DNA from: a bacterium
GTDB lineage: Bacteria > Armatimonadota > Chthonomonadetes > Chthonomonadales > CAJBBX01
Reading direction: 5' to 3'
DNA length: 33,914 nucleotides
NCBI GenBank assembly: GCA_021811565.1
Contig: JAJZOL010000026.1
Coordinates: 1-33,914 of the forward strand
Shown: positions 29,223-33,914 of the stretch, one piece after another
Position numbering within the stretch: position 1 is the stretch's first letter
How the letters are laid out: each line of letters begins with the position of its first letter
Translations under genes and position numbers: made by a program
The notes under the pieces: generated by a model
What the model saw: only the letters and a program-made list of their open reading frames with translations
What the model was told of the DNA's origin: nothing
Databases searched by the model: none

Positions 29223-30797
29223 ATGGCAAAGGAAAATAACAACGGGGCGAATCTGGGTTTTGAGGCGAATCTCTGGCGCGCGGCGGATGCGTTGCGCTCC
29301 AACATGGATGCGGCGGAGTATAAGCACGTCGTGCTCGGACTGATCTTTCTGAAATATATCTCGGACGCATTCGAGGAGCAATACGCCAAACTTGACGCGG
29401 ATCGAGAACAGGGGGCTGACCCCGAGGATCCGGACGAGTATCGCGCAATCAATATCTTCTGGGTTCCCCGGGAGGCGCGATGGTCGAAGCTGATGGAGAA
29501 TGCGAGGCAGCCCTCCATCGGTAAAATCGTCGACGAAGCCATGCTCTCCATAGAGCGTGACAACCCCTCGCTCAAGGGCGTCCTCCCGAAGGACTACGCT
29601 CATCCGCGCCTCGACAAGCAGCGTCTCGGCCAACTCATCGACCTCGTCGCAAACATCGGTCTCGGCGACAGGGATAATCGCTCAAAGGATATTCTCGGCA
29701 GGGTGTACGAGTATTTCCTCTCGCAGTTCGCCAGTGCGGAGGGCAAAAAGGGCGGTCAGTTTTACACTCCTCGCTGCATCGTCCGCGTTCTGGTTGAAAT
29801 GCTCGCTCCTTACAAGGGGAGGGTATACGACCCCTGCTGCGGCTCCGGCGGGATGTTCGTGCAATCGGAGAAGTTCGTGGAGGCGCACGGCGGACGGATC
29901 GACAACATCAGCATCTACGGTCAGGAATCCAATCACACCACTTGGCGTCTGGCAAAGATGAACCTCGCCATTCGCGGCATCGACGGTAACCTCGGAGCGG
30001 AGCACGCCGACAGCTTCCATCGCGATCTTCACTCTGACCTTAAGGCGGATTACGTCCTTGCAAATCCCCCCTTCAACGATTCGGATTGGCGCGGGGATAC
30101 ATTGCGGGAGGATCAACGTTGGAAATACGGCATACCGCCCGCGTCGAACGCCAACTTCGCCTGGGTCCAGCATTTCATCCATCACCTCGCTCCCACCGGT
30201 TTCGCCGGATTCGTGCTCGCCAACGGTTCGATGTCTTCCAACCAGTCCGGCGAGGGCGAAATACGCAGGAACATCATCGAGGCGGATCTGGTGGACTGCA
30301 TGGTGGCGATGCCCGGGCAGCTTTTCTACTCCACGCAAATACCCGTCTGCCTCTGGTTCATCGCCCGCGATAAGAGGAACCACCGCTGCCGCGACCGGTG
30401 CCGCGAGACACTCTTCATAGACGCGCGGAAAATGGGCTCGATGATTGACCGCGTCCACCGCGAACTTACCGACGAGGATATCCGCAAAATCGCCGACACC
30501 TACCACGCTTGGCGCGGCGATTTGGAGGAGGCGTTTTCCGATTCGAGCCGTAGATACGAGAACATCCCCGGGTTCTGCAAATCGGCGACGCTGGAGGAGA
30601 TTCGAAGCCACAACCATATCCTCACGCCCGGACGTTACGTGGGCGCGGAGGAGGCGGAGGACGATGGGGAGCCGTTCGATGAGAAGATGAAGCGGCTCGT
30701 GGCGCAATTGCGCGGGCAGATGGCCGAAGCCGAGAAACTCGATGCCGAGATTGCGATGAACTTGAAAGATATTGGATTTTGGGAATCGGAGACATGA
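29223..30797 (+). CDS. hsdM: Type I restriction-modification methyltransferase subunit
   Basis: A 524-aa N6-adenine methyltransferase subunit that needs an HsdS partner to recognise DNA. The N-terminal HsdM_N domain is clear ([43 protein letters not shown]). Motif [12 protein letters not shown], lies near residue 203 and the catalytic motif IV, NPPF, near residue 281 ([14 protein letters not shown]). [16 protein letters not shown] is the conserved block before motif I. The length is normal and the gene looks intact. Its stop overlaps the next start as ATGA, so the truncated AlbA_2 gene was originally the next cistron. No intact hsdS or hsdR is in the window; hsdR may lie past the right end. 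Confidence 0.95.
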
Positions 30798-31117
30798 CAA
30801 ACGAAAGGCTTCAAGAAATCATTGCAGTCGGCGAGTCGCTAGATGTTGACTTCAAGGGCGAGGAGCGTAAAACTCTATCCTATGACGATCTGGCGGAGGT
30901 GGTTGTCTGTTTGGCGAACCGATCCTCCGTTTCACCGACATGGTTGTTGTGCGTGGCGTTATATGACCGCCTAGTCCGCCAAGGTACAAAATGGGCTCCT
31001 CTTATGCATGGAGGCATTAAAATAAGACCGTGCACAAATCACAAATGCTCGCATGCAAAGAATATTTCGTTTTTGCGGTCCGCTACGGCAAAACATCAGT
31101 ATATGCAGCGGTTATGA
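30794..31117 (+). pseudogene. Truncated AlbA_2-type (Schlafen-like) ATP-binding gene
   Basis: Starts with an ATGA overlap on hsdM. The first 40 or so residues ([43 protein letters not shown]) match the N-terminus of the AlbA_2/divergent-AAA_4 proteins often found between hsdM and hsdS. In that family the next residues should be a Gly-rich LLIGVxDDG strand, but here the frame continues as RSSVSPTWLLCVALYDRLVRQ... with no family similarity and stops at 107 aa, against a normal length of 400 or more. The break is at about base 30920. I read it as a gene cut by a deletion or replacement; a functional short ORF is unlikely. Confidence 0.7.
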
Positions 31118-31429: not shown

Positions 31430-31528
31430 GAGCGGAGAATTGTAGAAGATAAATTACATGCTATTCATGCATTGCATGATTATTTCAGAATATTAAAGAA
31501 TGTTTTTCTTGCTCATAAGGAGTTTTAA
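31430..31528 (+). pseudogene. Possible 3' remnant of hsdS
   Basis: One frame ends as ERRIVEDKLHAIHALHDYFRILKNVFLAHKEF and then a stop, resembling the 'EQRRIVExLDALxAxVD' helix at the end of HsdS specificity subunits. Stop codons lie just upstream in the same frame, so only the tail survives. The stop is one base before the ATG of the 274-aa gene and the ribosome site of that gene lies inside the remnant, suggesting the pair was once coupled to hsdS. The similarity is short and the call is tentative. Confidence 0.38.
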
Positions 31529-31529
31529 A

Positions 31530-32354
31530 ATGAGCCAAATCAGAGTGCGTGAAGTACTACAAATTCATATTGATCCGCCAAGCGGGAACGCCAAACTTTC
31601 TGAGCTAAAGGTATTGGCTGATCAAGTTCAGCGTACTCTTGATGCCGTGGCGCGTAATCTTGCAAAAGATCCGAAAGCGAAAGTGGATGCGGATATAAGT
31701 GGGGCTACCATTGGAAGTTTGCATTTGGTGCTTCAACCAGCCTTAGCTGATTCTTTTGCTGTCAACCCGGACCAAATATGCCGGACATTGATTGAGGACA
31801 TCAATAATGTGGAGCATCAACGTTATCGACCGGATATGACTCTCGCACTACTGCAACAATATAAGGCGCTTGTCAATATGTTCCGTAATTCCCATATCCA
31901 GGTTCAATTAAGTCATGGCATTGATGACGTCACCATTGATGATGATTTCAGGAGCATGTTTCGGGCATCCACGAAGGAGAGAATAGCGAATAAAGTGGAT
32001 ATTATCGGCAGAATCGAAGCGCTGAATATCCACTCCACTCCTTATGAAATGAAATTATTCCCAACAACGCCAGATACCGATTATATACTGTGTCGTTTCG
32101 AGGATGAAATGCTTGAGAAAATCACTGATTTATTCAAGCACAAATCCATGGTTCGCGTAACAGGTACGGGATATTATGCACCTATTGGCATCAATCCTTC
32201 GAGGCTTGTTCTGACATCCGCCCCCGTCCCGCTAGTTTTTGATTTGGATCAATTGCGTCTCTATGCGAGGAATGTCAATCTTGTACCTGCAGGGATGAGC
32301 GCCTCTGATTTTTTGGCGGCAAATCGGAAGGCGGCGGGTCTTGAAGAAGATTAA
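31530..32354 (+). CDS. Unrecognised 274-aa protein, putative partner (antitoxin?) of the PIN protein
   Basis: I do not recognise this family. The track begins at 31500, but AAGGAG seven bases before the ATG at 31530 decides the start. There is no signal peptide or membrane segment. The N-terminal 120 residues mix a predicted beta-hairpin (REVLQIHIDPPSG; GATIGSLHLVLQPA) with helices (LKVLADQVQRTLDAVARNLAK). A linker (HGIDDVTIDDDF) is followed by a compact C-terminal domain at about 150-255 (KVDIIGRIEALNIHSTPYEMKLFP..., CRFEDEMLEKITDLF, VRVTGTGYY) that reads like a small beta-barrel such as an OB fold. The C-terminus (ASDFLAANRKAAGLEED) is polar. The gene overlaps the PIN gene by 14 bases. An antitoxin or targeting role is inferred from that overlap only. 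Confidence 0.75.
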   Translation: MSQIRVREVLQIHIDPPSGNAKLSELKVLADQVQRTLDAVARNLAKDPKAKVDADISGATIGSLHLVLQPALADSFAVNPDQICRTLIEDINNVEHQRYRPDMTLALLQQYKALVNMFRNSHIQVQLSHGIDDVTIDDDFRSMFRASTKERIANKVDIIGRIEALNIHSTPYEMKLFPTTPDTDYILCRFEDEMLEKITDLFKHKSMVRVTGTGYYAPIGINPSRLVLTSAPVPLVFDLDQLRLYARNVNLVPAGMSASDFLAANRKAAGLEED

Positions 32355-32808
32355 AACCATTTACTGGGATGCAAACTGCCATATCGCGCTTTTAAATAAG
32401 GAAGCCACGACGGAACCTCAATATTTAGCCGCATTGGAGGAAACGTATGAGGATATGCTTTTTGGCAAAGTGCATATCCTGACCTGTACTCTCATTCTTG
32501 CTGAAGTGTTCCAAGAAGAACAACACCGAAATATCTGCGAAAAGCTCATAGGTTGTCCTCACTATTCGATGATTGAAACGGTGAGCAGTATATATGCTCT
32601 GGCCGGGGAATTAAGATTAAAATGTGCTAAGGTAAATCAAAAATTGAAAACTCCCGATGCTATTCACATAGCGTCGGGTTCCCTTGCGAAGGCGGATGAA
32701 ATATGGACCACCGATGAACAGCTTATTAACAAAGGAAAAGCCGAACTGCTTGTGGATACTCCGATTGTATACCCTTATATTCAAGAACCGCGGCTTGTTT
32801 TCGAGTAA
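32341..32808 (+). CDS. PIN-domain ribonuclease, VapC-like putative toxin
   Basis: A 155-aa PIN-fold protein with the four acidic metal-site positions in order: D10 (IYWDANCHIALL), E55 (LILAEVF), D106 (TPDAIHIASG) and D125 (IWTTDEQL). It should cleave RNA with Mg or Mn ions, as VapC toxins do. The start is a TTG at 32341 inside the end of the 274-aa gene in another frame, so its translation probably depends on that gene. The usual VapB antitoxins are under 100 aa; none is present, and the only coupled partner is the 274-aa protein. The frame and length are intact. Confidence 0.85.
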   Translation: MKKIKTIYWDANCHIALLNKEATTEPQYLAALEETYEDMLFGKVHILTCTLILAEVFQEEQHRNICEKLIGCPHYSMIETVSSIYALAGELRLKCAKVNQKLKTPDAIHIASGSLAKADEIWTTDEQLINKGKAELLVDTPIVYPYIQEPRLVFE

Positions 32809-33066: not shown

Positions 33067-33914
33067 ATGGAGAGTGAAAATTCGAAGACGGATAATTCGC
33101 GCAAAGCTTTTGGTCGAAAGCGTGAGGGAGTTTCCTTTCCTGCTCCGCCATTTCGTGCGGGTATGCCTGAAGGCTATGCCGCCACGCTGAACGAGATCAA
33201 GCGGCGGATTCGGACGGAGCGGCTTCGTGTAGTCCTTTCCGCCAATGCGGCCATGATACTGATGTATTGGGAAATCGGCAGGATGATCCTGGATCGGCAG
33301 GAAGATCAAGGATGGGGCGCCAAGGTTATTGATCGTTTATCCTTGGATCTGCGCGAAGCGTTCCCTGAGATGCATGGGTTGTCCTCCCGCAATCTCAAGT
33401 ACATGCGCACTTTCGCTGAAGCCTGGCCGGATCATGAAATTGTGCAACGTGTCATTGCACAAATGCCGTGGCGTCAGAACATCGCTCTTCTCGAAAAGCT
33501 CGATGATGCACCAACTCGACTGTGGTATGCGCGACAGACAATTGAAAATGGATGGTCGCAGCCCGTCCTCTGCATGCAAATCGAGAGTCGCGCACACCTC
33601 CGGCAAGGCAAAACCGTCAACAACTTTGCTTTGACCCTGCCACCAGCCGATTCAGATATCGCGGGACAGATTTTCAAGGATCCGTACCTTTTCGATTTTC
33701 TCGGAACCGCCGATCCAAGGCGAGAGGCGGAAATCGAAAAGGCTCTGGTGGATCACATCCAGAGGTTTCTGCTCGAGCTGGGGGCGGGGTTCGCTTTCGT
33801 CGGGCGGCAGGTGCATCTGCAGTTCTCCAGCTCCGACTACTATCTTGACCTGCTCTTTTACCATCTCAAATTGCGTTGCTTTGTGGTCGTGGAACTCAAA
33901 GCCGTGCCCTTCCA
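33067..33914 (+). CDS. DUF1016/YhcG-family PDDEXK nuclease, partial at right edge
   Basis: An open frame from ATG 33067 (GGAGGA eight bases upstream) to the window end with no stop, so it is absent from the ORF track. After a polar N-terminus of about 40 residues, the DUF1016 helical domain begins (YAATLNEIKRRIRTERLRVVLSANAAMILMYWEIGRMI), then SSRNLKYMRTFAEAWP and MPWRQNIALLEKLDD...RLWYARQTIENGWS. The nuclease domain follows: LGAGFAFVGRQVHLQFSSSDYYLDLLFYHLKLRCFVVVELK, with the PDDEXK Asp and ExK in place. The family is commonly found in type I restriction-modification loci next to hsdS and hsdR. About 280 residues are visible; roughly 60-80 are probably missing. Confidence 0.9.
   Translation, partial: MESENSKTDNSRKAFGRKREGVSFPAPPFRAGMPEGYAATLNEIKRRIRTERLRVVLSANAAMILMYWEIGRMILDRQEDQGWGAKVIDRLSLDLREAFPEMHGLSSRNLKYMRTFAEAWPDHEIVQRVIAQMPWRQNIALLEKLDDAPTRLWYARQTIENGWSQPVLCMQIESRAHLRQGKTVNNFALTLPPADSDIAGQIFKDPYLFDFLGTADPRREAEIEKALVDHIQRFLLELGAGFAFVGRQVHLQFSSSDYYLDLLFYHLKLRCFVVVELKAVPF

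Follow-up and report, generated by a model that had tools for sequence, protein, structure and literature searches.

Two overlapping genes, denoted A and B, that lie downstream of a type I restriction-modification (R-M) methyltransferase gene in the window (the whole 33,914-nucleotide stretch of DNA analyzed here) almost certainly form a real, conserved two-gene module. The reading of this module that we favor, with a probability of roughly 0.6, is that of a toxin-antitoxin (TA) pair of a type II-like organization, with a new, large antitoxin that contains a predicted OB fold. A-B is a module in its own right that, in one clade, strongly tends to sit inside restriction operons.

Gene A (31530..32354, forward strand, as are all features described below) encodes a 274-aa antitoxin-like protein of an undescribed family; the open reading frame (ORF) starts with ATG at 31530, is preceded by AAGGAG (31517..31522), a probable ribosome-binding site, and ends with a stop codon at 32352-32354. 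Gene B (32341..32808) encodes a 155-aa PIN-domain RNase-like protein and starts with TTG at 32341, so that the two genes share 14 nt (32341..32354), an arrangement suggestive of translational coupling; the equivalent overlaps span 8-17 nt in most loci of the family. The probable ribosome-binding site of B, GGAAGG (32326..32331), is located within A. The unusual start codon is supported by the conservation of the same TTG in another genome (G017), in which A is 55% identical and AGGAGG occupies the equivalent place ahead of the TTG. About 50 nt upstream of A, there is a 15-bp palindrome, TCATGCATTGCATGA (31465..31479), that consists of a perfect 7-bp inverted repeat, TCATGCA-T-TGCATGA; no counterpart was found upstream of the relatives of A, and for this reason the palindrome is considered only a candidate operator.

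The B protein from the window matches the Pfam PIN profile with an E-value of 0.0015, short of the Pfam cut-off; the divergent relatives of B exceed this cut-off. The acidic residues D10, E55, D106 and D125 are invariant in B and its closest relatives, and an alignment of 16 B proteins shows the first three of the acidic PIN positions conserved throughout, with the fourth being D in 13, E in 2 and N in 1. The AlphaFold2 model of B has a pLDDT of 44.5. Both the coordinates and the conservation thus agree with the claim, made in a sequence-only reading of this DNA, that a PIN gene with an intact acidic tetrad starts on a TTG inside the 3' end of a 274-aa gene. That reading could name no family for the larger protein, and this still holds: gene A has no family match in Pfam, NCBIfam or PHROGs, and 12 relatives of A (13 members including A from the window) match no Pfam family either.

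Upstream of the pair, the window contains hsdM, the methyltransferase gene of a type I R-M system (29223..30797; Pfam N6_Mtase, E-value 1.4e-111, and HsdM_N). Between hsdM and A lies a truncated SLFN_AlbA_2 gene (30794..31117) that was recognized by alignment to the gene of a sister species (G001): approximately the first 57 codons align, and beyond that, the alignment is lost. The gene of the sister species is longer and yields a full domain match (Pfam E-value 2.2e-15). Downstream of the pair is a DUF1016 (YhcG) nuclease gene (33067..33914; Pfam DUF1016_N, 8.6e-42, and YhcG_C, 2.1e-33; PADLOC PDC-S02) that is cut by the contig end. Because the contig stops at 33914, hsdS and hsdR are not seen in the window; in the sister species, these two genes come after DUF1016. 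The placement of the pair in type I R-M surroundings beside DUF1016, as originally proposed, is therefore borne out.

Profile searches were run across about 290 Armatimonadota genomes. With the A profiles, relatives of A were identified in 22 of 397 genomes, all of them Armatimonadota, with a patchy spread; one profile scan of genome contigs yielded four loci, again from Armatimonadota only. We read 7-14 kb of the neighborhood for most of the A loci, and shorter segments at a few contig ends. Among the 21 loci with a readable downstream gene, A is directly followed by a PIN gene in 20, namely, a member of the B family in 19 loci and a PIN of another subfamily in one (G038; Pfam PIN, 1.9e-9); the single remaining locus (G220) has a HicA-like gene instead. 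The reverse search, with B, identified 15 places in 14 genomes, each of these (15/15) behind an A gene. The outcome that would have spoken against a module, with homologs of the two genes rarely neighboring each other, was thus not seen. The pairwise distance matrices of A and B are correlated (Mantel r 0.81, a value not reached in any of 10,000 permutations), as would follow for any jointly inherited pair. The two genes also decay together: in the sister species, the equivalent site between hsdM/AlbA_2 and DUF1016 retains only fragments of the two genes, from the A 3' end and the B 5' end, and in G017, there is a stop codon inside A, and B is truncated. Such decay and damage are the habits of a dispensable module.

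Two-way co-occurrence, conserved overlap, correlated divergence, exchange of the partner (see below) and joint decay identify A-B as a genetic unit. As far as the genetic unit is concerned, this substantiates the proposal of a TA-like pair: A-B is an adjacent, co-inherited two-gene operon, as type II TA systems are. PIN genes are common, so that an A gene might be next to one by chance, but this explanation can be practically dismissed given the adjacency in both search directions, the correlated divergence and the conserved overlap.

An AlphaFold2 run on A together with five related sequences produced a model with a mean pLDDT of 80.7. In this model, an N-terminal alpha/beta domain (residues 1-150; 31530..31979, delineated from the predicted secondary structure) is followed by a domain with the strand order b-b-b-a-b-b (residues ~151-228; 31980..32213, delineated from AlphaFold2, Foldseek and conserved columns) and, after this barrel, two C-terminal helices. 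The conserved motifs of the barrel domain are GxxE..NIH, VxCxF and G..Y.PxG..P. When A was compared with the PDB using Foldseek, the matches were mainly OB folds (SsbA, RPA14/32, Stn1, lysyl-tRNA synthetase), which makes an OB fold the probable identity of the barrel; the probabilities of these matches are mostly near 1, with E-values of only 0.003-0.02 and about 100 residues covered. The whole-length Foldseek matches are uncharacterized phage proteins with poor rmsd, and the sequence comparison of A with solved structures returned nothing credible. OB folds usually bind nucleic acids, and protein binding occurs as well. The original description of A as a helical N-terminal part joined to a small C-terminal beta-barrel comes close to the model, in which the barrel is predicted to be an OB fold and the N-terminal part is an alpha/beta mix; the suggestion that the barrel could bind nucleic acid is supported in outline by the predicted fold.

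What chiefly speaks for A as an antitoxin is the exchange of its partner between RNase toxins. In G220, the A-like protein shows relatedness to the A family (hhalign E-value 2.8e-7, with the OB fold among the 133 columns aligned). The plasmid, phage and viral collections contain no A homolog except for one distant match on a cyanobacterial plasmid, found with the G220 protein. This match, on the Geminocystis plasmid pGM3709_06 (L082), is 31% identical to the G220 protein and is unannotated because the gene spans the start of the circular record. In both G220 and the Geminocystis plasmid, a HicA-like gene comes directly after the A-like gene; the one in G220 matches Pfam HicA with an E-value of 2.4e-4, under the Pfam cut-off, and the one in Geminocystis was called by its resemblance to the G220 gene. 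Antitoxins are known to swap RNase toxin partners, and judging from these sequences, the presence of a HicA-like gene in place of the PIN gene suggests such toxin swapping.

A further locus (L084, in G270) was considered as a third partner combination and rejected because its VapC-looking gene contains a stop codon and, also when this codon is read as X, fails to match Pfam PIN. Upstream of this gene, the same locus (1540-2357) encodes a stand-alone OB-like protein that matches PDC-M32A with an E-value of 1e-6 in the genome and could be a minimal form of an A-type antitoxin.

We define an A locus as R-M-linked when a methyltransferase gene (PF01555 or PF02384) is located within about 3 kb of A. 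Under this definition, 7 of the 22 loci are R-M-linked (G000, that is, the window, G008, G016, which is decayed, G038, G177, G194 and G197), compared to 0.43 expected from the genome-wide methyltransferase density (P ~9e-8 with the loci treated as independent, a value that exaggerates the significance, given the relatedness of some loci). In two genomes (G194 and G008), the pair is part of a type III operon with the gene order mod-A-B-res, in which all junctions overlap or are separated by no more than 8 nt, and in G038, it is part of a type I operon with the order hsdR-hsdS-A-PIN-hsdM. In the tree of A, one clade includes R-M-linked loci in 5 of its 8 members; as for the remaining three, G198 is cut off by the end of its contig, the G017 pair carries damage, and in G004, A is present but B departs from the PIN profile. 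Most of the pairs in the other clade (clade II) have no R-M gene nearby.

This distribution bears on the suggestion, made at the outset, that the pair is a guard that acts when R-M is lost or inhibited. The association that underlies this suggestion greatly exceeds the chance expectation, with three genomes having A-B inserted among the genes of a type I or type III operon, but a guard of restriction cannot be the general role of A-B because about two thirds of the loci are not beside restriction methyltransferase genes. Where the pair is embedded, a role as a restriction guard appears possible, although we consider it less likely than not. PrrC is a single protein with an ATPase part. It provides the precedent for an RNase guard inside a restriction operon, in that case of type I (PMC12707154). 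A-B resembles the PrrC-EcoprrI system in that an RNase gene is embedded within the R-M locus (G008, G194 and G038, with the pair in the window beside hsdM), and differs from it in that A-B also occurs outside R-M loci, the linked ones being the minority given above.

Among the known TA systems, the likeness to VapBC is apparent in the antitoxin-like gene that comes first, the overlapping PIN gene that comes second, the acidic tetrad, with B having the conserved acidic residues of the VapBC PIN toxins, and the patchy, decaying distribution. The difference lies in A, which is three to four times larger than VapB and contains none of the RHH, AbrB, PHD, Xre or MerR domains in the Pfam searches of the 13 members, unlike the small DNA-binding antitoxins of the VapB type. 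The likeness to HicAB is limited to the A-like genes of G220 and Geminocystis that precede a HicA-like RNase gene; the usual partner in the A family is a PIN protein, and A is not HicB. Large partners of PIN proteins have been described, among them the COG2856 Zn-peptidase/Xre fusions in the survey by Makarova 2009, and none of the PIN partners taken from that survey resembles A (PMC2701414). In the validated defense system DS-5, a PIN protein is combined with a DUF5830/AcrIF4-like protein, both proteins are needed, and the system is not TA-like (PMC13092281). The COG2856/Xre-PIN pairs and DS-5 thus share with A-B a PIN protein with a large partner, but these partners are unrelated to A in domain content. 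As the reported lack of TA behavior in the PIN pair of DS-5 illustrates, adjacency alone is no proof of neutralization.

The nearest described relative is PDC-M32 of PADLOC, a phage-defense candidate that consists of the proteins M32A and M32B and is mentioned without a mechanism (PMC12429752). The similarity is weak: several members of the A family match the PDC-M32A model over part of its length, in the central and OB part of the proteins, with E-values of 7e-5 (L057), 0.002 (L056) and 0.021 (window), and PDC-M32A is about 375 aa in length compared to the 274 aa of A. No match to PDC-M32B was detected among three PIN and two HicA-like partners (E≤5) or in B from the window (E≤1). We do not take A and PDC-M32 as one family, given the weak match; some of the genome-level matches are false, for example, that at L086, which is to a stomatin-like protein. 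Membership in DUF6575, a domain present in a tested phage-defense system of E. coli (PMC9519451), was rejected: a phage DUF6575 protein matches the A model in Foldseek with an E-value of 2.7e-9 but a TM-score of only 0.44 and 10 Å rmsd, and there is no sequence match to Pfam PF20215 in A or in the host genome. PD-T4-10, a proven TA defense pair of E. coli with overlapping genes, was also considered, and no link to A was found. Judged against the open-access literature, the A-B family looks like an undescribed one.

The alternative that deserves the most attention, although we give it a distinctly minor share of the probability, is that A is not an antitoxin but the sensor or activator of a two-protein phage-defense system, in which the OB fold would detect phage nucleic acid or the state of the restriction enzyme and switch on the PIN RNase; within restriction operons, such a system would be a guard similar to PrrC/EcoprrI. 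The strong enrichment of A-B beside type I and type III restriction operons and its intercalation in these operons are compatible with this possibility, as are the suitability of the OB fold for nucleic acid sensing and the weak similarity of A-family members to the defense candidate PDC-M32A. DS-5, with a PIN protein and a partner that are both required outside a TA context (PMC13092281), and PrrC (PMC12707154) offer precedents. Nevertheless, about two thirds of the loci have no nearby restriction methyltransferase, and the overlap in which the non-nuclease gene comes first, along with the exchange of PIN for a HicA-like protein, is more typical of antitoxins. The mod-A-B-res operons (G008, G194), with junctions that overlap or nearly touch, and the hsdS-A-PIN-hsdM arrangement (G038) might, alternatively, indicate that A and B are specialized auxiliary subunits of the restriction enzyme that function, for instance, in RNA or DNA processing within a type III or type I complex; this is improbable considering that a pair of identical architecture stands alone in most clade-II genomes and that two different restriction types accompany A-B. 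The combination of PIN and OB folds is seen in RNA-processing enzymes, and A and B could, in principle, have a housekeeping role in RNA processing, with A as the OB-fold RNA binder and B as the PIN endoribonuclease. We consider this quite improbable in view of the patchy presence, in 22 of 397 genomes, the decayed or damaged state in G001 and G017, the partner exchange and the defense-gene surroundings.

Under the favored TA reading, B would be a PIN RNase toxin, and A would be translated first, from an mRNA common to both genes, and kept in excess by the overlapping translation. A might bind B via its N-terminal domain and the C-terminal helices, and the ligand of its OB fold may be promoter DNA or RNA, or a single strand derived from phage or from DNA damage. 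Loss, degradation or sequestration of A would release B, which would then cut RNA and stop growth. The pair would move as a separate unit and would have entered type III and type I restriction operons on repeated occasions; there, it would penalize cells that lose the operon, or bring an infected cell to arrest when restriction fails. A broader and more speculative extension, doubtful as it stands, is that A represents an undescribed superfamily of OB-fold antitoxins that swap RNase toxins (PIN, HicA-like) and, in one clade, have become a built-in suicide component of type III and type I operons, with nucleic acid that is set free by the action or the failure of restriction serving as the signal detected by the OB fold.

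If the TA reading is correct, A would define a new class of large OB-fold antitoxins, from a phylum in which TA systems are little studied, and the embedded loci would be natural examples of type III and type I restriction operons with an inbuilt RNase toxin pair. The mod-A-B-res arrangement, a simple, clonable operon, would then make the idea of restriction backed by programmed arrest testable.

Several individual loci show additional features. In the sister species (L065 in G001, ~6.5-7.2 kb), the region that separates AlbA_2 from DUF1016 contains, in addition to the A and B fragments, a 29-aa piece that resembles the start of an MqsA/YgiT-type zinc-finger antitoxin, with no Pfam match at such a length. 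In G177 (L060, 7651-8099), B lacks an in-frame start, and an ATG is present one frame off, pointing either to a 1-nt frameshift in this gene or to an error of the assembly. In G017 (L064, 4260-5153), the damaged A-B pair is immediately preceded by a HicB-like/HicA pair and a small nucleotidyltransferase gene, which together constitute a cluster of TA genes.
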